Shown here piece by piece: positions 1 to 8,245 of a stretch of 64,000 nt of DNA. Location of the stretch: assembly GCF_011759585.1 (NCBI RefSeq), contig NZ_JAAOYV010000002.1:493510-557509 (forward strand). The letters run 5' to 3'. The first letter of the stretch is position 1, and each line of letters begins with the position of its first letter. The position numbers and the translations under genes are program-made. The notes under the pieces were generated by a model. The model saw only the letters and a list, made by a program, of their open reading frames with translations, did no database searches and had not been told where the DNA came from. This DNA comes from Frigoribacterium endophyticum (lineage in GTDB: Bacteria; Actinomycetota; Actinomycetes; Actinomycetales; Microbacteriaceae).

Positions 1-1
1 C

Positions 2-793
2 GCCCCCGGCACGGCCACGAGCCACGTCGTCGAGACGCCCTACGGGCCCACCTCGAGCGAGGTCACGGTCGGGCAGCTCGGCGGCAAGACGGTCGCCTTC
101 CTCACGCGGCACGGCAAGGGCCACTCGGTGCCGCCGCACCGCATCGACTTCCGCGCGAACGTCTGGGCGCTCGCGTCGCTCGGTGCGAAGGCCGTCGTCT
201 CGTCGTCGGCCGTGGGCGGGGTCAGCCCGGAGTACCCGCCGGGAACGATGGTCGTCACCGACCAGTTCATCGACCGCACCTGGGGCCGCCCCGACACGTT
301 CTTCGACGTCGCGGGCTCGGTGCAGCACCTCGTCGCGGCCGACCCGTTCGACCCGGTGCTGCGCGCCGCGGCCGTCGCCGCCCTCGAGCAGCAGGGCGAG
401 CCGTTCGCCGCGACCGGCACCTGCGTCGTCATCCAGGGGCCGCGCTTCTCGACGCGGGCGGAGTCGCTGTGGTTCCGCGCCGCGGGCGCGCACACGATCA
501 ACATGACGATGTACCCGGAGGTGCCGCTCACGATGGAGCTCGGCATGGGCGCCGTCAACCTGTCGTTCGTCACCGACAGCGACGCCGGCATCTCGCCCGA
601 GGAGGGCACCGACGACGACGCCGTCAGCCACGGCCTCGTGATGGAGCGCCTCGCCGCGGCCCAGCCCCGCATCGTCGCCGCCATCGAGTCCATCGTCGCG
701 GCGCTGCCGGCCGACTACGAGCCGCGCGAGCTGATCCCGGCGGCGGCCGTGGCCGAGGTCCTCGCACGGCCCGTCGCGGCGGCACGGTCGTGA
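2..793 (+). CDS. mtnP: S-methyl-5'-thioadenosine phosphorylase (5' end outside window)
   Basis: Phosphorolyses methylthioadenosine to adenine and 5-methylthioribose-1-phosphate in the cytosol. The reading frame is open from base 2; 263 residues are visible and roughly 20 N-terminal residues are missing. Family landmarks are clear: RHGKGHSVPPHRIDFRAN near residue 37, DQFIDRTWGRP, the substrate loop GPRFSTRAES, and NMTMYPE. The C-terminal acid motif reads TDSD, closer to the TDYD of MTA phosphorylases than to the Asn of purine nucleoside phosphorylases. The stop overlaps the next gene's start (GTGA), so both are probably co-translated. The neighbours suggest its sugar-phosphate product feeds a glycan pathway rather than, or besides, methionine salvage; no other mtn salvage gene is seen. 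A general purine nucleoside phosphorylase is the less likely alternative. Confidence 0.9.
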   Translation, partial: APGTATSHVVETPYGPTSSEVTVGQLGGKTVAFLTRHGKGHSVPPHRIDFRANVWALASLGAKAVVSSSAVGGVSPEYPPGTMVVTDQFIDRTWGRPDTFFDVAGSVQHLVAADPFDPVLRAAAVAALEQQGEPFAATGTCVVIQGPRFSTRAESLWFRAAGAHTINMTMYPEVPLTMELGMGAVNLSFVTDSDAGISPEEGTDDDAVSHGLVMERLAAAQPRIVAAIESIVAALPADYEPRELIPAAAVAEVLARPVAAARS

Positions 794-1881
794 GCGACGC
801 GACCCGCGACCCGTCGGCCCCCGGCCGGCTGCTCGTCACGGGCGGGGCCGGGTTCATCGGCTCCGCGATCGTGGCGCAGGCGCTCGACCGGGGCTGGACG
901 GTGCGCGTGCTCGACTCGCTGCGCCCCGACGTGCACGGCGGGCCCCCGTCGCTCGACCCGCGCGTCGAGTTCGTGCACGCCGACGTGCGCGACGCCGCCG
1001 CCGTCGACGCCGCGCTCGTCGGGGTCGACGCCGTCTGCCACCAGGCCGCGAAGGTGGGGCTCGGCGTCGACTTCCAGGACGCCCCCGACTACGTCGACAG
1101 CAACGAGCACGGCACGGCCGTGCTGCTCGCGGCGATGGACAGGGCCGGCGTCGGCCGTCTCGTCGTCGCCTCGTCGATGGTCGTCTACGGCGAGGGCAGC
1201 TACCGCACGTCGACCGGCGAGACGGAGCGCCCGGCGCCCCGCCGCGTCGCCGACCTCGACGCGGGCGTCTTCGACCCGCGCGACGAGCACGGCGAGCTGC
1301 TGCAGCCGCAGCTCATCTCGGAGGAGGCGCCGCTCGACCCGCGCAACGTCTACGCGATCACGAAGCTGACGCAGGAGCACCTCGCCACCTCGTGGGCGCG
1401 CAGCACCGGCGGGCGTGCGGCGGCCCTGCGCTACCACAACGTCTACGGGCCCGGCATGCCGCAGAACACGCCGTACGCCGGCGTCGCCTCGCTCTTCCGC
1501 TCGTCGCTCGAGCGGGGCGAGGCGCCGCGCGTCTACGAGGACGGCGCCCAGCGCCGCGACTTCGTGCACGTGCGCGACGTCGCGTCGGCGAACCTCGCGG
1601 CGCTCGACTGGACGGCCGGGCAGGAGCCCGAGACCTCCCGCGCCTTCAACGTCGGCAGCGGCACCGTGCACACCATCGGCGAGATGGCGGAGGCGCTGGC
1701 CCGCGAGGCCGGCGGCCCCGCCCCGGTCGTCACCGGGCAGTACCGCGCGGGCGACGTGCGCCACGTCACGGCGTCGTCGGAGCGGCTGCGCGTCGAGCTC
1801 GGCTGGAGCCCGAGCGTGTCGTTCGAGGAGGGCATGCGCGAGTTCGCGACCGCGCCCCTGCGGGCGGCCGTCGCCGGCTGA
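790..1881 (+). CDS. NAD-dependent sugar epimerase/dehydratase (extended SDR, GalE-like)
   Basis: Extended short-chain dehydrogenase of 363 residues, probably epimerising or oxidising a nucleotide- or phospho-sugar. The Rossmann motif GGAGFIG lies at residues 18-24 and the catalytic YxxxK (YAITK) at 188-192, with the Ser of VVASSMVVYG as the third catalytic residue. The GTG start at 790 overlaps the stop of the phosphorylase gene, which fixes the start and implies translational coupling. An insertion of about 40 residues (around 140-180) separates the Ser and Tyr motifs. In M. tuberculosis a GalE-like gene (galE3) sits at the same place after the MTA phosphorylase gene. My inference is C3 epimerisation of methylthioribose to the xylo form; the true substrate is unknown. 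Confidence is high for the fold, low for the reaction. Confidence 0.85.
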   Translation: MSDATRDPSAPGRLLVTGGAGFIGSAIVAQALDRGWTVRVLDSLRPDVHGGPPSLDPRVEFVHADVRDAAAVDAALVGVDAVCHQAAKVGLGVDFQDAPDYVDSNEHGTAVLLAAMDRAGVGRLVVASSMVVYGEGSYRTSTGETERPAPRRVADLDAGVFDPRDEHGELLQPQLISEEAPLDPRNVYAITKLTQEHLATSWARSTGGRAAALRYHNVYGPGMPQNTPYAGVASLFRSSLERGEAPRVYEDGAQRRDFVHVRDVASANLAALDWTAGQEPETSRAFNVGSGTVHTIGEMAEALAREAGGPAPVVTGQYRAGDVRHVTASSERLRVELGWSPSVSFEEGMREFATAPLRAAVAG

Positions 1882-1994
1882 CCCTGGGCCCGGTCACGCG
1901 GCGGCGGGGGGCGTCCCACCGCCGCCGACAGCGCTGGGCGGACAGGCGCGCACCCCGTTCGGGGCGGCACCGGCCGTTCCCAAGGCGGGCTCTC

Positions 1995-2000
1995 TACAGT
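1995..2000 (+). promoter_or_regulatory. -10 element (TACAGT) before the GT2 gene
   Basis: TACAGT ends 7 nt before the ATG at 2008, the spacing of a leaderless or near-leaderless transcript. CGGGAGG also directly precedes the ATG, so a short-leader mRNA is possible. No clear -35 is seen. Confidence 0.5.
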
Positions 2001-2007
2001 CGGGAGG

Positions 2008-2676
2008 ATGAGCTCTCCCCTGGTCGACGTCGTGCTGCCCTGCCTCGACGAGGAGGGAGCGCTGCCCTGGGTGCTCACGCGCATCCCCGAGGGCTGGCGC
2101 GCGATCGTCGTCGACAACGGCTCGACCGACCGCTCCGCCGCCGTCGCGCGCGAGCACGGCGCCCTCGTCGTCGAGGAGTCGCGGCGCGGCTTCGGCGCGG
2201 CCGCCCACGCCGGCCTCGAGGCCGCCACCGCCCCGTGGGTCGCCTTCTGCGACGCGGACGCCTCGATGGACCCGGGCGACCTGGTCGCCCTCGCCGCCCC
2301 CGTCCTCGCCGGCGACGCCGAGCTGGTGCTCGGCCGCCGACGCCCGACCACGCGCGGCGCCTGGCCCCTGCACGCCCGCCTCGCGAACCTGGTGCTCGCC
2401 CGCCTGATGCGCCGCGCCTCCGGCGTCGCCCTGCACGACCTCGGGCCCATGCGCGTCGCCTCCCGCGAGGGCCTGCTCGGCCTCGGCCTCGTCGACCGCC
2501 GCAGCGGCTACCCGCTCGAGATGGTGCTGCGTGGCTCACAAGCCGGCTGGCGCATCGTCGAGCTCGACGCCCCCTACGCCCCGCGGGTCGGCCGCAGCAA
2601 GGTCACGGGCACGATCCGCGGCACCTGGGTCGCCGTGAAGGACATGTCGCGACTGCTGCGCGAGGTGGGCCGGTGA
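2008..2676 (+). CDS. Family 2 glycosyltransferase (polyprenyl-phosphate sugar synthase-like)
   Basis: A 222-residue GT-A fold glycosyltransferase. VVLPCLDEE at the N-terminus, DNGSTDRS near residue 36 and the metal-binding CDADASMD near 81-88 are typical of the dolichyl/polyprenyl-phosphate mannose synthase branch. There is no C-terminal membrane segment, so it probably works at the inner face of the membrane, loading a sugar on a polyprenyl phosphate carrier. It has its own -10 element and overlaps the next gene by GTGA. Rv0539 of M. tuberculosis, a GT2 in the methylthioxylose locus, is the likely counterpart. The donor sugar cannot be read from sequence. Confidence 0.88.
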   Translation: MSSPLVDVVLPCLDEEGALPWVLTRIPEGWRAIVVDNGSTDRSAAVAREHGALVVEESRRGFGAAAHAGLEAATAPWVAFCDADASMDPGDLVALAAPVLAGDAELVLGRRRPTTRGAWPLHARLANLVLARLMRRASGVALHDLGPMRVASREGLLGLGLVDRRSGYPLEMVLRGSQAGWRIVELDAPYAPRVGRSKVTGTIRGTWVAVKDMSRLLREVGR

Positions 2677-3311
2677 CCACCCTGGTGCTGATCTGCAAGG
2701 AGACCCTCCCCGGCCGGGTCAAGACGCGGCTGCACCCGCCCCTGAGCCTCGAGCAGGCCGCCGAGCTGGCCGCCGCGGCGATCCAGGACACCCTCGACGT
2801 GCTCCGTGCGCTGCCCGCCACGCGACGCGTCCTGCTCTTCGACGGCAACCGGACGCCGCCCGGCTCCGAAGACCTCGATGTGATCCCCCAGACCAGCGGT
2901 GACCTCGACGAACGGCTCGGGGCGCTCTTCGACGCCGTCGACGGCCCGGCCGTGCTCGTCGGCATGGACACTCCGCAGATGACTGCCGCCGACCTCGCAC
3001 CCGTGCTCGACTCGTGGCGCGACGGCCCCGGCGACGACGTCGACGCCTGGTTCGGACCCGCCAACGACGGCGGCTTCTGGGCCCTCGGCCTCGCCCGACC
3101 GACCGGCGACCTGCTCCGCGGCGTCCCGATGTCGCGCGCCGACACCGGCGAGCACCAGCTCCGCCGCCTCGCCGAGGCCGGCCTGCGCGTGCGCACCCTG
3201 CCCGAGCTCGCCGACGTCGACACGATCGACGACGCGCGCCTGGCGGCCTCCGCCGGCCCCGAGACCCGCTTCGCCCGCCTGCTGCACCGCTTCGAGGAGC
3301 CCCGCTCGTGA
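2673..3311 (+). CDS. TIGR04282/DUF2064 family glycosyltransferase-like protein
   Basis: A 212-residue protein of the TIGR04282/DUF2064 family (GT-A/nucleotidyltransferase fold). Characteristic motifs are the N-terminal PGRVKTRL, LVGMDTPQM near residue 95, and GPANDGGFWALGL near 128. Members are called rSAM/selenodomain-associated transferase 1 or arsenosugar biosynthesis glycosyltransferase, but the biochemical activity is poorly defined. GTG start and 4-bp overlaps with genes on both sides put it inside one translational unit with the GT2 and the methyltransferase. M. tuberculosis Rv0540 occupies the same relative position. I infer a role in activating or transferring the unusual sugar made by this cluster. 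Confidence 0.85.
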   Translation: MTTLVLICKETLPGRVKTRLHPPLSLEQAAELAAAAIQDTLDVLRALPATRRVLLFDGNRTPPGSEDLDVIPQTSGDLDERLGALFDAVDGPAVLVGMDTPQMTAADLAPVLDSWRDGPGDDVDAWFGPANDGGFWALGLARPTGDLLRGVPMSRADTGEHQLRRLAEAGLRVRTLPELADVDTIDDARLAASAGPETRFARLLHRFEEPRS

Positions 3312-4024
3312 CCATCGCCTCCGACCCCCGCCCCACCTTCGGATCAGGAGGCGCGGAGCCCTACGCCCGCGCCCTCCGCCGCGAGGGGCTGCTGCAGCTC
3401 GTCCGCTCCCCCGGCAGCACCCGCGAGCGGGGCGGTCGCCCCGGCGACGCCGCCCGGGGCACCGCCCAGGCCGCCTTCGACGTCGCCCGCTGGAGCGCCG
3501 ACGCCGACGCGGCCGACCTCACCACGATCGACGACGCGCGCTCCGTGCTCGACATCGGCTGCGGCCCCGCCCGGATGGTGCGTGCCGCCGTCGACCGCGG
3601 CCTCGACGCCCTCGGGGTCGACGTCTCCGTCACCGCGGTCGCGATGGCCGTCGACGCGGGCCTGCCCGTCGTCGCCGGCTCCGTCTTCGACGCGGGCCTG
3701 CCCGGCGAGGGGTCGTGGCACGTCGCCCTGCTGCTCGACGGCAACATCGGCATCGGGGGCGACCCGACCGCGCTCGTGCGCCGCGCCTCCTCGGTGCTGT
3801 CGACCGACGGATCGGTCGTCGTCGAGACCGCTCCCGACGCGCGCGCCGACGTCGCGTACGACGCCCAGGTCGTCGACGAGCAGGGCCGCGCGAGCGCGAC
3901 CTTCCCGTGGGCCGAGGTCGGCCGTGAAGCCCTCGGGCGGCACGCCGCCGCCGCGGGCCTGCGGGTGGCTCAGACCTGGTCGGCCTCGGGCCGGACCTTC
4001 TGTCGCCTGGTCACCGCGAGGTAG
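3308..4024 (+). CDS. Class I SAM-dependent methyltransferase
   Basis: A 238-residue Rossmann-fold methyltransferase; the SAM-binding motif I VLDIGCGPARM lies near residues 80-90, followed by the acidic GVDVS strand. It starts with GTG inside the previous stop codon (GTGA) and is the last gene of the forward cluster. Its 3' end overlaps the convergent membrane-protein gene by 55 bp. The substrate is not recognisable. Since the GT2 and TIGR04282 genes are translationally coupled to it, methylation of a sugar or a lipid-linked intermediate is plausible, but this is inference only. Confidence 0.85.
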   Translation: MTIASDPRPTFGSGGAEPYARALRREGLLQLVRSPGSTRERGGRPGDAARGTAQAAFDVARWSADADAADLTTIDDARSVLDIGCGPARMVRAAVDRGLDALGVDVSVTAVAMAVDAGLPVVAGSVFDAGLPGEGSWHVALLLDGNIGIGGDPTALVRRASSVLSTDGSVVVETAPDARADVAYDAQVVDEQGRASATFPWAEVGREALGRHAAAAGLRVAQTWSASGRTFCRLVTAR

Positions 4025-4470
4025 ACGGCGATCGTCGCCGCGGCGAGCAGGGCGAGCACGAGCCAGAGCAGCGCCAGCCGCGCGCCGTAGTCGAACGGCA
4101 GCACCGTGTCGTTCTTGGTGCCCTTCGCCTTCGCGATGATCTCGGGCACGACGACGATCGACAGCACGGCACCGACGATGACGGTCGTCTGGACGATCGC
4201 CAGCACGGCCGGGCGCACCCGGCGGCCGGCCCGCCGCACGACGAGCGAGACGGCGACGACGAGCGGCGCGAGCACGGCGTCGTGGACGATCACCGAGCCG
4301 ATCAGCCAGACCAGCAGCCCGCCGTACCGGGTCGGGTTCACCGTGTCGGTGAGCACGTACCCGCCGAGGCCGATCAGCGCGACGCCGACGACGAGCAGCA
4401 CGGCCCGGGCGACGCGGACGCCACGCCCGGTCGAGGCCGGCACGCTCGGGGCGGCGCTCGACGCGGTCAT
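3970..4470 (-). CDS. Small four-helix membrane protein, partner of the Mo oxidoreductase gene
   Basis: A 166-residue protein with four predicted membrane helices (about residues 20-42, 47-70, 85-108 and 130-152). I recognise no named family. The ATG at 4470 overlaps the stop of the upstream molybdenum enzyme gene (ATGA), which argues for translational coupling and a shared job, for example as a membrane or electron-transfer partner. No heme-ligand pattern is obvious apart from a His in the second helix region (IVHDAVLAPL). The 3' end runs 55 bp into the convergent methyltransferase gene. An in-frame ATG 27 nt upstream is less likely because it lies inside the neighbour. Confidence 0.75.
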   Translation of the reverse strand: MTASSAAPSVPASTGRGVRVARAVLLVVGVALIGLGGYVLTDTVNPTRYGGLLVWLIGSVIVHDAVLAPLVVAVSLVVRRAGRRVRPAVLAIVQTTVIVGAVLSIVVVPEIIAKAKGTKNDTVLPFDYGARLALLWLVLALLAAATIAVYLAVTRRQKVRPEADQV

Positions 4471-5795
4471 CGGACGACCTCGATCCGGCTGAGCCACTTG
4501 GTCTGCAGCACGCCGGGGCGGCCGGGGGCGATGACACGGGCCGGGTAGCCGTGCTCGATGTCGAGGCGGCTCCCGTTCAGCTCGAGGGCGACCAGCGTGG
4601 TCGGGTCGGTGGCGTACTCGGGGCCCATCAGCATGATGCGGTACCCGCCCTTCTCCTCGAGGCTCGTGAACTTCAGGCGGGCGTCGGCCGGGGCGCCGAC
4701 GGCGCCCATCAGGTCGACGAGGCGCACGCCGCGCCAGGCCGCCGTCTGGCTCCAGCCCTCGACGCAGGCGATCGGCAGGCGCTCGTCGCCCTGCCGCATC
4801 GCCTCGAGGTCGGCGGCGCTGAACGACAGCTCGCGGTCGCCGTTCGCGACGGTGAGGCGCCAGGCCGGGTCCATCGCGGTCTCGAGGACGCGCGCCGCCG
4901 CGGCCGTGCGGTTGATCGGCAGGTCGTTCGGGCCGAGGCCCGCCTGCCGCGGCCCGAAGGCGTTGAGCGGCGCGAGCGCGGCGAACGACTGCCCGGCGGT
5001 CAGCACCACGGCGCCGCCGGTGGCGACGCCGACGCCGGTGAAGAAGGCCCGGCGGGAGACGACGGAGGCGCGGGGCGCGTCGTTCTCGTCACGCGCGCCG
5101 TCGATCCACCGGGTCACGCGACCGACGAGGCCCGTGGGCTGCGGGGCGGCCGCGGCCTGCCCGCGGCGCGGCTCCGGGGCCGCCTGCCGGGCGCGCAGCT
5201 CGCGGGCCGCCGTGAACTCGGCGCGGGCCGGGTCGAGCTCGCGCGACGGCTCGACGAACCGGCCCTCGGCGTCGTAGCTGTCGCGGGCCCGCCAGTAGCG
5301 CGTGATGAGCGGCAGCTTCACCGCGATGTGCACCGCGAGCGACCCGATGATCACGAACGACAGGGCGAAGTGCACCTGCTTGAACGGGAACGGCCACGGG
5401 TACCACTGGTACGTGTTGAGCAGCCCCGTGACGAGCTGAAGGATCGAGCTCGCGACGAAGAGGGCGATGGAGGCGCGCTCGAGCAGCTGCACCGGGTGCC
5501 GCACCAGCGGCGTCTGGAACAGCTGCGGGAAGACCGCGTAGAGCTTGCCGAGCAGCAGCGGGACGCACGCGATGCCGGCCGTGATGTGCACGCCCTGGCT
5601 CACCTGGTACAGCCACACGGGCGAGGTCGGGAAGCGCATCCAGGCGGCGGGCTCCTGGAGGAAGTGGCTGTAGAGGCCGGTCAGCAGGCAGACGACGAAG
5701 GCCAGCCCGAGCAGCCGCCCGAGCACCGTCGCCGTGCGGGCCGTGCGCGTCGGCGACGAGGCCGCCGTGCGGAGCGTGTCGAGCAGTCGTCTCAT
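4467..5795 (-). CDS. Membrane-anchored molybdopterin oxidoreductase (sulfite oxidase family, internal Tat signal)
   Basis: A 442-residue fusion. The N-terminal half has four membrane helices (about residues 23-48, 63-90, 105-130, 140-168) resembling a cytochrome b561/MsrQ-like module. A fifth helix is preceded by a twin-arginine motif, SRRAFFTGVG, near residue 244, followed by a sulfite-oxidase-type molybdopterin domain. The expected Mo-ligand Cys is C344 in PIACVEGWS. This layout matches a known actinobacterial class in which Sec inserts the first four helices and Tat exports the C-terminal Mo domain (Sco3746 type). The active site should therefore face outside the membrane. Neighbouring mod and moa genes supply Mo and cofactor. 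By analogy with MsrP, a thioether/sulfoxide substrate is plausible. The substrate and the electron partner are not proven. Confidence 0.88.
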   Translation of the reverse strand: MRRLLDTLRTAASSPTRTARTATVLGRLLGLAFVVCLLTGLYSHFLQEPAAWMRFPTSPVWLYQVSQGVHITAGIACVPLLLGKLYAVFPQLFQTPLVRHPVQLLERASIALFVASSILQLVTGLLNTYQWYPWPFPFKQVHFALSFVIIGSLAVHIAVKLPLITRYWRARDSYDAEGRFVEPSRELDPARAEFTAARELRARQAAPEPRRGQAAAAPQPTGLVGRVTRWIDGARDENDAPRASVVSRRAFFTGVGVATGGAVVLTAGQSFAALAPLNAFGPRQAGLGPNDLPINRTAAAARVLETAMDPAWRLTVANGDRELSFSAADLEAMRQGDERLPIACVEGWSQTAAWRGVRLVDLMGAVGAPADARLKFTSLEEKGGYRIMLMGPEYATDPTTLVALELNGSRLDIEHGYPARVIAPGRPGVLQTKWLSRIEVVR

Positions 5796-5844
5796 GGGGG
5801 CCGTCTCTGCGAGGTGCGGGAACGACCTCCCAGGGCGGAGTCGT

Positions 5845-5850
5845 CCAGAC
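5845..5850 (+). promoter_or_regulatory. Putative -10 (CAGACT) before the GT-C gene
   Basis: CAGACT is followed after 7 nt by the GTG start at 5858. No Shine-Dalgarno is present, so a leaderless mRNA is likely. Confidence 0.4.
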
Positions 5851-5857
5851 TGGTCGT

Positions 5858-7405
5858 GTGCGTACTCTATTCGCGGCCGTGGCCGTCACCGGATTGGCGG
5901 CGACCGTGGCGTGGGGCGTGCTGGAGCTGGGCTTCCTCGAGAAGGACCTCCGCGACTCCTACGTGCTCTGGACTGCCGCGTGCTGGGCCCTCTTCGCGCT
6001 CGCCGTCGTGCTGCTGCGACGGGTGCCCCTCCGGGCCGTCACGGCCCTGGTGCTCGCCGGCACCGCGCTGCTCGGCGGCGCCGCCCTCGTGGGCCCGCCC
6101 AACACCAGCACCGACCCGGCCCGCTACGCGTGGGACGGCATCGTGCAGGGCGCCGGCACCTCGCCGTACACGTACACGCCCGACTCGGGCGAGCTGCGCG
6201 ACCTGCGGCCCGACTGGATCTTCCCGCCCGCGGCCGACTTCACCCGCGACGACGGCACGATCGGCCAGCGCTGCAGCCAGCCCGACCGCCAGATCCACCG
6301 CGCCTACGACACCGAGACCGGCGACGTGGTCTGCACCGCGATCAACCGGCCCGAGGTGCCGACCATCTACCCGCCGACCGCCGAGCTGTGGTTCTGGGCG
6401 GTGCGCTCGGTGGTGCCCGCCGACGTGGAGTTCCTGCCCTTCCAGCTCGCCGGGGCGCTGCTCGTGCTCGGCACGACGGCCGCCCTGCTCGTCGCCCTGC
6501 GGCGCCGCGGGCTCGACCCGCGGTGGGCGGCGCTCTGGGGCTGGTGCCCGCTCGTGCTCGGCGAGGGCGTGACGAACTCGCACGTCGACCTGCTCGGCGC
6601 CGTGCTCGTCGTCGTCGCCTCGCTGTTCGTCGCCCGCGGCGCGGGCTGGCGCGGCGGCGTCGCGCTGGGCGCCGCGATCGCGACGAAGCTCATCCCGGTC
6701 ATCGCCGCGCCCGCCCTGCTGCGCCGCCAGCCGGTGCGGGTGATCGTCGCCTCGATCGTCACCTTCGCCGTGCTCTACGTGCCCTACGTCGTGTCGACGG
6801 GCATCGGCGTGCTCGGCTACCTGCCCGGCTACCTCACCGAGGAGGGCTACGAGGACGGCTCGCGCTTCGTCTTCGCCTCGGCGTACCTCCCCGACTCCGT
6901 CGCGACGCCCGTGGTCGCGCTCGTGCTGCTCGTCACCGGCGTCGTCGTGTGGGTCAGGACACCGCCCGGCGACCCGTGGCTCGGCCAGCTGGTGATGATC
7001 GGCGTGACCCTCGTCGCCGTCAGCCCCCGCTACCCCTGGTACGCCCTGCTGCTCGTGCCGTTCGTCGCGATGACCGGGCGGTGGGAGTGGCTCACGATCC
7101 CGCTCGCGCTGCTCGTGCGGCAGCTCGAGCCGGGCCAGGCGCTCCAGAGGTCGTCGCTCGCGGCGGCGGTGCTGGTCATCCTGCTCGGGACGATCCTCCG
7201 GGTCGGGGCCGGCTGGCTCGACCGGCTGGCGGACCTGGCGGAGGCGGGGGCCCGGCGCCTGCGCCACCCGCGCTGGCCGCGGGGCCGGGGCGGGCGTGCC
7301 GCCCTCGGGGGCAGGGGCGTCGCGGGCGCCCGGGGCGTCGGGGGCAGCTCCGCCGGGTCGGCGAGGTCGACCGGGGCCGCCGGGCCGCCGGGGGCGTCGG
7401 CCTAG
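5858..7405 (+). CDS. GT-C fold membrane glycosyltransferase (GT87/DUF2029-like)
   Basis: A 515-residue polytopic protein with around ten hydrophobic helices. The first large external loop carries the motif DPARYAWDGIVQGAGTSPY (residues ~88-106), typical of actinobacterial polyprenyl-phosphate-dependent mannosyl/arabinosyl-type GT-C enzymes. Such enzymes use lipid-linked sugar donors on the outer leaflet. The last ~60 residues are Arg/Gly/Ala-rich and probably disordered. It is divergently transcribed from the molybdenum enzyme gene. In M. tuberculosis the GT-C protein Rv0541c, next to the GT2/DUF2064 pair, is linked to methylthioxylose transfer; this gene is the likely equivalent. The TAG stop is embedded in the -10 of modA. 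Confidence 0.82.
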   Translation: MRTLFAAVAVTGLAATVAWGVLELGFLEKDLRDSYVLWTAACWALFALAVVLLRRVPLRAVTALVLAGTALLGGAALVGPPNTSTDPARYAWDGIVQGAGTSPYTYTPDSGELRDLRPDWIFPPAADFTRDDGTIGQRCSQPDRQIHRAYDTETGDVVCTAINRPEVPTIYPPTAELWFWAVRSVVPADVEFLPFQLAGALLVLGTTAALLVALRRRGLDPRWAALWGWCPLVLGEGVTNSHVDLLGAVLVVVASLFVARGAGWRGGVALGAAIATKLIPVIAAPALLRRQPVRVIVASIVTFAVLYVPYVVSTGIGVLGYLPGYLTEEGYEDGSRFVFASAYLPDSVATPVVALVLLVTGVVVWVRTPPGDPWLGQLVMIGVTLVAVSPRYPWYALLLVPFVAMTGRWEWLTIPLALLVRQLEPGQALQRSSLAAAVLVILLGTILRVGAGWLDRLADLAEAGARRLRHPRWPRGRGGRAALGGRGVAGARGVGGSSAGSARSTGAAGPPGASA

Positions 7406-7414: not shown

Positions 7415-8245
7415 ATGCCGACCCGGTCACGCGCACCGCGCCTCCTCGCCGCCGCCCTCGTCGGGCTGGGCGTGCTGGCCGCCTCCGCGGGGTGCTCCGC
7501 CGGCGACGTGGGCGCGGGCGACGACTCGACCGCGGGCACGACCGCGCCGGGGCGCGCCACGCCCGCGCTGTCGGGCGAGGCGACCGTGCTCGCCGCGGCC
7601 TCGCTGACGGAGACCGTCGACCGCCTCGCCGCCGAGTTCGAGGCGGCGAACCCCGGCACGACCGTGACGGTCAGCTACGGCGGCAGCTCGGCGCTCGCGC
7701 AGCAGATCGTCTCCGGCTCGCCCGTCGACGCCTTCCTCAGCGCGAGCAGCGCGACGATGCAGACCGTCGTCGACGCGGGGCTCGTCGAGGGTGAGCCGAC
7801 CACCTTCGCGCGGAACGCCCTCGAGATCGCCGTGCCGGCCGGCGACCCGGGCGACGTCGACTCCCTCGTCGACCTCGCCGACCCCGACGTCTCGGTCGCG
7901 CTCTGCGCCGTCGAGGTGCCCTGCGGTGCGCTCGCCCGGCAGCTGCTCGACGCCGAGGGCGTCGACGTCGTGCCCGCCACCCTCGAGCCCGACGTGAAGA
8001 GCGCGCTGACCAAGGTCGAGCTGGGCGAGGTCGACGCCGCGCTCGTCTACGAGACCGACGTCGCGGCCGCCGGCGACCGCGTGCAGGGCGTCGACGTCGG
8101 CGGTGCCGACGCCCCGACGACGGCGTACCTCGGGGCACGCCTGCGCGACGCTCCCGACCCGACCGTGGCTAACGCCTTCCTCGCGTACGTGCTCTCCGAC
8201 CCCGGGCAGGACGCCCTCGCCGATGCCGGCTTCCGGGTCGGCTGA
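7415..8245 (+). CDS. modA: Molybdate ABC transporter substrate-binding lipoprotein ModA
   Basis: A 276-residue periplasmic-type binding protein anchored as a lipoprotein: hydrophobic signal peptide at residues ~9-26 ending in the lipobox ASAGC (Cys27). The mature part has family motifs VLAAASLTETVDRLAAEF and YGGSSALAQQIVSGSPVDAFLSA split across residues ~53-108, and the late LVYETDV segment. It captures molybdate (possibly tungstate) outside the membrane. It is the first gene of modABC and starts leaderless at 7415. It lies directly after the Mo-enzyme gene cluster, which fits a supply role. Stop overlaps modB by 23 bp. Confidence 0.93.
   Translation: MPTRSRAPRLLAAALVGLGVLAASAGCSAGDVGAGDDSTAGTTAPGRATPALSGEATVLAAASLTETVDRLAAEFEAANPGTTVTVSYGGSSALAQQIVSGSPVDAFLSASSATMQTVVDAGLVEGEPTTFARNALEIAVPAGDPGDVDSLVDLADPDVSVALCAVEVPCGALARQLLDAEGVDVVPATLEPDVKSALTKVELGEVDAALVYETDVAAAGDRVQGVDVGGADAPTTAYLGARLRDAPDPTVANAFLAYVLSDPGQDALADAGFRVG

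Follow-up and report, generated by a model that had tools for sequence, protein, structure and literature searches.

What might a methylthioadenosine phosphorylase (MTAP) do in the company of sugar enzymes, glycosyltransferases and a molybdenum enzyme whose catalytic domain is probably exported? The question arises at the start of a 64,000-nucleotide stretch of Frigoribacterium endophyticum DNA (hereafter the window; C2:493510-557509 of a 3.3 Mb genome in 6 contigs), where eight such genes lie together. The answer we favor, and consider probable, is an envelope glycosylation pathway that is fed by methylthioribose-1-phosphate (MTR-1-P), runs through a polyprenyl-linked sugar, resembles the methylthioxylose (MTX) pathway of Mycobacterium tuberculosis and is tailored by a methyltransferase and the molybdenum enzyme.

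The module begins with MTAP (1 to 793, plus strand), which the left edge of the window truncates at the 5' end, the family match starting 38 bases before that edge. Its closest families remain NCBIfam PRK07823 (263 bits) and TIGR01694 (245 bits), with scores under the curated cut-offs of 306 and 274.85 bits, and it aligns with solved MTAP structures and keeps their TDxD motif. On the same strand follow a GalE-like short-chain dehydrogenase/reductase (SDR) sugar epimerase of 363 amino acids (790 to 1881; Pfam Epimerase, E 2e-51, with matches to epimerases in the PDB); a family 2 glycosyltransferase (GT2) of 222 amino acids, similar to polyprenyl-phosphate sugar synthases and in the place of MtxS/Rv0539 (2008 to 2676; Pfam Glycos_transf_2, E 1e-19); a DUF2064/TIGR04282 protein of 212 amino acids, similar to CofC nucleotidyltransferases (2673 to 3311; Pfam DUF2064, E 2e-19); and a class I S-adenosylmethionine (SAM)-dependent methyltransferase (MT) of 238 amino acids (3308 to 4024; Pfam Methyltransf_23, E 8e-8, and its own family profile, A8). 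Two genes are encoded on the opposite strand: TM4, a 166-residue partner of the molybdenum enzyme with four hydrophobic stretches (3970 to 4470), and the enzyme itself, MoOx, which joins a b561-type domain of four transmembrane helices, a twin-arginine motif and a molybdopterin domain in one chain of 442 residues (4467 to 5795; Pfam Oxidored_molyb, E 8e-23). A 515-residue GT-C glycosyltransferase (5858 to 7405, plus strand; Pfam GT87) completes the module. The preliminary description of this DNA had named these eight gene types and the coupling of most of them by GTGA/ATGA overlaps, without mention of the minus strand of TM4 and MoOx or of the flanking molybdenum cofactor genes. Profile matches recovered every type, and four-base stop/start overlaps are present at four of the seven junctions (790-793, between MTAP and the epimerase; 2673-2676; 3308-3311; and, on the minus strand, 4467-4470, the ATGA between MoOx and TM4).

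Recurrence of the module among Actinomycetota

All eight genes are found in Actinacidiphila acididurans (L155), with order and strands unchanged. A locus from another family of the order (L174) holds, in a row, a histidine kinase, a response regulator, GT2, DUF2064, MT, TM4, MoOx (split in two pieces), MTAP, galE and a GT-C of a different family, c9. Among 20 relative loci chosen by their GT-C, 18 carry GT-C and MoOx together, and L050 (a short contig) and L052 show GT-C alone. Two larger sets were picked by GT2 similarity, and their counts describe GT2 carriers only: the named loci come from the best 80 of 576 matches to the GT2 profile, and the phylum loci from 40 of the other 55 GT2 genomes. 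A counted locus needed about 6 kb on each side of GT2, whereby the first set of relatives (L002, L033-L052) is absent; genes were counted from six-frame HMM matches where possible, the greedy gene caller having given some wrong gene limits. Among the 58 named loci, DUF2064 is present in 57, galE in 54, MoOx in 54, MT in 52 and MTAP in 16; the corresponding numbers for the 31 phylum loci are 30, 30, 22, 23 and 11. MTAP linkage recurs in several families, and most Streptomyces loci are without it. Two-component genes also recur among 141 loci, typically beside GT2: 73 loci encode a histidine kinase (76 proteins) and 62 an OmpR-type regulator (66 proteins). Unlike in these relatives, they are not adjacent to GT2 in the window.

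To view this association genome-wide, we drew 396 genomes evenly from the phylum and scored the best few candidates in each (for example, seven for GT2 and four for MoOx). MoOx was called from a best segment above 150 bits, matches of 74-88 bits being taken as general members of the fold, and GT2 from a profile score of at least 190 bits, a line drawn after the scores had been seen and at which there is no clear gap. MoOx is present in 43 of the 396 genomes, all 43 within the 56 that carry GT2 (Fisher p 2e-46). With the line at 195 bits, 53 genomes count as GT2 carriers and include 40 of the 43; at 150 bits there are 71 carriers, which include all 43 (p <1e-38 each). Related genomes are not independent, and counting by genus, which only softens the effect of kinship, places MoOx in 22 genera, all among the 33 GT2 genera of 237 (p 3e-23). 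At the cut-offs used, GT2, MoOx and MT were all unfound in G419, which shares a genus with mycobacterial-type genomes described below, and in G340, from a Streptomyces-like genus. Being syntenic far outside the genus of its host and co-occurring genome-wide, the module is more than a chance grouping.

The preliminary description had regarded MT and the molybdenum enzyme as a new extension of a known pathway. That both belong to the system is upheld by co-occurrence and by second loci; however, they are not special to this window, because most GT2 loci examined hold MT and MoOx, and the four mycobacterial-type loci that lack them have MoOx elsewhere in the genome. Within the Microbacteriaceae, MT is found in nine of ten MoOx genomes outside the host genus, and the 26 searched of the 34 genomes lacking MoOx gave one match (G043, 45 bits). 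The loci had also suggested that MT and MTAP always occur together in this family, a rule that we dropped since Agreia has MT elsewhere and no MTAP. Searches of the PDB returned only general matches for MT. To judge from these sequence comparisons, MT and MoOx appear tied to the GT2 module even when they stand at a second locus.

Core sugar genes and the supply of methylthioribose-1-phosphate

The nearest described counterpart is the pathway that places MTX on the lipoarabinomannan (LAM) of M. tuberculosis, where MtxS (Rv0539) is reported to form MTX-P-C50 and MtxT (Rv0541c) to transfer MTX (PMC8780516).

One family of our collection (f22) offers a comparison with this pathway. The order and strands of its loci match what we take to be the arrangement of Rv0533c-Rv0542c, and on these grounds we infer that they belong to Mycobacterium. 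Four of them (L081, L083, L084 and L085) contain MTAP and galE followed, further along, by GT2 and DUF2064, with no MT or MoOx within the stretch (the GT2 of L081 was missed by the gene caller); in L083 and L081 the order runs on to a c9 GT-C and then an AMP-ligase such as menE would encode. Four others (L086-L089) hold MT and MoOx in the mtx-type locus as well. By identities computed on the greedy gene calls, the window GT2 is 52-54% identical to the GT2 of five f22 loci, and its DUF2064 protein is 37-42% identical to those of loci of mycobacterial order. The latter protein is a clear Pfam DUF2064 member, scores 112 bits against the TIGR04282 'arsenosugar' family (cut-off 134) and matches PDB 3cgx, a putative nucleotide-diphospho-sugar transferase, at E 2.6e-18. 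The likeness of GT2 to MtxS is drawn through these loci of presumed Rv0533c-Rv0542c order rather than through the Rv0539 sequence.

The preliminary description had equated the core of the window with M. tuberculosis Rv0535-Rv0541c. As it expected, MTAP and the epimerase occur with GT2 and DUF2064 in related genomes, including the loci of presumed mycobacterial order, and all four genes stand together in the window. The GT-C step is of the same kind, but here the equation fails: the window protein belongs to GT87, not to the c9 family found in the Rv0541c place. Its profile (A3) gives a profile-profile probability of 0.4% in hhalign against A6, which stands for the MtxT family by position only, and the two families occur in one locus in only 1 of 108. 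The window locus differs further in containing MT and MoOx. The GT87 protein does have the GT-C membrane fold, its structure model matching GT-C enzymes that use lipid-phosphate sugars; for the c9 GT-C, the PDB held no sequence relatives. Two further families were seen near GT-C genes. Cluster c12 (Pfam PMT_2), another protein resembling membrane glycosyltransferases, is encoded at L099:15198-16781 and in 20 other loci, adjoining GT-C in L110, L115 and L148, and a lipoprotein-like protein of about 227 amino acids with no Pfam match (cluster c18) is encoded at L166:12748-13428 and in 15 other loci of Microbacteriaceae type, near GT-C in L110.

The sharpest test of co-occurrence comes from the host's own family. 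Among 60 Microbacteriaceae, MTAP (E up to 1e-30) was found in 24 of the 26 MoOx genomes, 16 of these 24 being from the host's own genus, versus none of the other 34; by genus the contrast is 9 of 11 versus 0 of 34 (p 6e-8). GT-C is present in the same 26 genomes as MoOx, and fifteen genomes of the host's genus carry it. The two MoOx genomes without MTAP are G024, which has broken MTAP pieces only, and G041. The phylum draw added five members of this family: G351 has GT2, MoOx and MTAP, and G319, G362, G410 and G437 lack GT2 and MoOx, with an MTAP-family match at 5.8e-21 in G319. Across all 396 Actinomycetota, MTAP was found in 52 of the 56 GT2 genomes and 221 of the 340 others at E up to 1e-20, a cut-off that admits some other phosphorylases.

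Twelve named genomes have no MTAP at the fetched locus. It is encoded elsewhere in three Clavibacter and one metagenome-assembled genome (MAG; 4/4), and was not found genome-wide in Agreia (four), Herbiconiux (three) or Naasia (one). These eight and G041 all have a methylthioribose (MTR) kinase (9/9), versus 0 of 5 MTAP-bearing genomes; the comparison covers module-bearing genomes only, and the G041 match is below the cut-off. In G388 neither MTAP nor MTR kinase was found. The kinase gene of Agreia is part of an mtnA-K-C-B salvage locus, whose genes are matched in the four further kinase loci retrieved. We therefore dropped the kinase as a dedicated supplier and describe MTR-1-P as available: by sequence, these members should be able to make it, which is distinct from making it for a glycan. 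Two kinase paralogs lie a few kilobases apart in the salvage region of L176, L177, L178 and L187 (Agreia, Herbiconiux and Naasia), and in L176 one of them adjoins a ribose-type ABC transporter. We also abandoned the argument that MTR-1-P has no other fate, based on absence of mtnA at E up to 1e-60, because the mtnA in the Agreia salvage operon, at 1.6e-57, lies beyond that limit. At that cut-off, which misses real mtnA such as this one, mtnA was unseen in 34 of 52 module genomes with MTAP versus 74 of 221 others. Within 884 kb of the host genome (about 26%, with 7.5 kb counted twice), a scan for mtnA, mtnC and mtnK came up empty, and a single weak match resembled mtnB.

The molybdenum enzyme and its membrane partner

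One known system close to MoOx is MsrPQ, the periplasmic methionine sulfoxide reductase. Both combine a molybdenum protein with a haem b membrane part, and the MoOx molybdenum motif, CVEGWS, resembles the CVEAWS of MsrP, with CVExWS invariant in 35 aligned proteins; the two-component system beside GT2 in many relatives of the window module is a further likeness. The membrane part matches Pfam Ni_hydr_CYTB at E 6e-7 (29.8 bits, just under the cut-off of 30.1). Unlike MsrPQ, MoOx is one fused chain with a four-helix partner and is tied to a glycosyltransferase module. It scores 32.9 bits against the MsrP family NF003767, far under the cut-off of 207; the motif region was aligned weakly to MsrP (1xdq, E 0.98), and the VIA-align rows for MoOx named no MsrQ structures. 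Differences from sulfite oxidases and sulfite dehydrogenases are the Cys region, the b-type membrane domain and the dimerisation domain, which a Pfam scan did not find in MoOx, the protein ending with its molybdenum domain. Alignments to sulfite oxidases begin only after the molybdenum motif.

MoOx occurs in two types, and the window TM4 is a homolog of c14, the partner protein of the second type (hhalign 97.9%). All four f22 genomes without MoOx in the mtx-type locus carry it elsewhere, with MT directly beside it in three and on a separate contig in the fourth. These four unlinked copies form one clade of the second type with the linked copies of L087 and L088 (support 100/100), in a tree built without the MoOx of L089; the L086 locus holds the first type, with a further copy elsewhere in that genome. 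We regard the MoOx of L181 as Rv0218-like, because its neighbors fit what we take to be Rv0217c-Rv0221. Judged by such neighbors, the unlinked f22 copies, which fall within the MoOx tree, resemble Rv0218-Rv0219 of M. tuberculosis; they differ from the window arrangement in being of the second type, with a c14 partner, and in not adjoining mtx genes in those genomes. As to unusual copies, two Streptomyces stretches (L053 and L146) contain both types, and L146 also encodes two MT-family methyltransferases. A contig labelled as an Acidobacteria MAG (L150) has a copy of the module whose MoOx groups with the Microbacteriaceae, and is either misbinned or transferred.

A proposed pathway and competing explanations

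In the pathway that we propose, MTAP would release MTR-1-P and adenine from methylthioadenosine, the DUF2064 protein would activate the sugar phosphate with a nucleotide, and the GalE-like enzyme would epimerise the activated sugar. GT2 would then load it onto polyprenyl phosphate and, after flipping, GT-C would pass it to a glycan outside, the product being tailored by MT and MoOx. Electron exchange with the quinone pool may run through the haem b561-type domain of MoOx, and the enzyme may act outside the cell on the methylthio group, most likely reducing a sulfoxide back to the thioether. What the data show is which genes are present, that they co-occur, that MT and MoOx are tied to GT2, that most carriers have MTR-1-P available, and the GT-C, b-type and molybdenum folds. 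Our interpretation supplies the rest, namely each reaction past MTR-1-P, the identity of the sugar and its xylo form, the acceptor, the direction in which MoOx works and the target of MT.

Extracellular thioethers oxidise readily. We prefer sulfoxide reduction because of this property, the MsrP-type motif, the quinone-type membrane part and the presence on LAM of both thioether and sulfoxide. The opposite direction, in which MoOx would oxidise the thioether to a wanted sulfoxide and pass the electrons to the quinone pool, is a variant that overlaps with the favored pathway and that we consider doubtful. Its structure model and fold matches place MoOx in the sulfite oxidase/MsrP fold, with the whole molybdenum domain nearest to sulfite dehydrogenases, which are oxidases; M. 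tuberculosis LAM carries the methylthio sugar and its sulfoxide, the latter in all four LAM preparations described in PMC8531672. Set against oxidation are the MsrP-type motif, after which the sulfite oxidase alignments begin, the dimerisation domain not found in the Pfam scan, and a one-chain layout resembling MsrP plus MsrQ, a reductase pair (PMC10151825). Equally, the sulfite dehydrogenase-like fold counts against the pathway as we propose it, and so do three further points: four conserved histidines are confined to the first MoOx type, the haem ligands being otherwise less uniform; MoOx persists also where MT has been lost; and the 190-bit GT2 line was set after the fact. The ligands and the cut-off slightly lower our confidence.

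MTAP could instead be a neighbor that recycles methylthioadenosine, next to an ordinary polyprenyl-phosphate pentose or hexose pathway with a sulfur-free sugar. Agreia, Herbiconiux, Naasia and G041 do keep the core in the absence of MTAP, most Streptomyces loci are likewise without it, and the substrates assigned to the DUF2064 and GalE-like proteins are putative. Nonetheless, we think this explanation unlikely: among the 60 Microbacteriaceae MTAP is found only with the module, also when it is not beside MoOx, its linkage recurs in several families, and MTR kinase offers those members without MTAP that were tested a different way to MTR-1-P. In addition, the mycobacterial GT2 in the same place is reported to form a methylthioxylose phospholipid (PMC8780516). 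Quite improbable, in our estimate, is a general envelope enzyme for methionine sulfoxide or sulfite, with MoOx and TM4 merely sited beside molybdenum cofactor and molybdate genes. Such genes flank the module in the window and the sulfite oxidase/MsrP fold would suit the role, yet, at the sensitivity of single-sequence profiles, the cofactor and molybdate genes were found near only some Microbacteriaceae loci, while MoOx stays with GT2 across the phylum, follows the module though unlinked in f22, and, at the cut-offs used, is missing from G419 and G340 along with GT2 and MT.

A more tentative idea, which we put forward as a possibility, is a renewable antioxidant coat. A methionine-like thioether sugar on the surface glycan would serve as a sacrificial target for oxidants, and a quinone-coupled MoOx (Rv0218-like in mycobacteria) would re-reduce the sulfoxide, controlled in many relatives by the two-component system. 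Such a coat would be a carbohydrate counterpart of the methionine-rich peptides recycled by MsrPQ; one methionine-rich peptide, encoded with an MsrPQ homolog in bcrXQP, sets a precedent for a thioether-rich partner of an enzyme of this kind (PMC10151825).

A review ties the methylthio sugar to the M. tuberculosis complex and describes the LAM of other mycobacteria as little studied (PMC10675199). Literature found by the names of the sugar had titles on mycobacteria, LAM or tuberculosis, the exceptions being at least PMC9912281, on glycan NMR, and PMC11127046, on pentofuranose transfer. The sugar and molybdopterin came together in none of the matches listed, an absence that is unproven with most subscription journals outside the search. 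If the proposed pathway is correct, this sugar, or a variant form of it, would be made in many other Actinomycetota, harmless species among them could serve for its study, and a family of membrane-bound molybdenum enzymes with no assigned job would gain its first functional context. It would also offer a reason for the coexisting sulfoxide and thioether forms on the mycobacterial glycan, and suggest a use of methylthioadenosine other than methionine salvage.

The genes around the module in the window include moeA, moaC, mog and moaE upstream and modABC and moaA downstream. The downstream mod/moa block starts with modA, for a molybdate-binding protein (7415 to 8245, plus strand; TIGR01256 99.8 bits, cut-off 62.5), and probably serves the supply of molybdenum cofactor. 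These genes vary among the 20 loci chosen by GT-C, being near the module in part of the Microbacteriaceae loci only, a result bounded by the sensitivity of the single-sequence profiles used. Such neighbors as the reason for the place of the molybdenum enzyme were rejected, as a local feature found near some of the loci only. One minor feature inside the galE-like coding sequence is an ARAGORN tRNA-Ser call at 1766-1865; Rfam reported no RNAs in the window, and the call is probably false.

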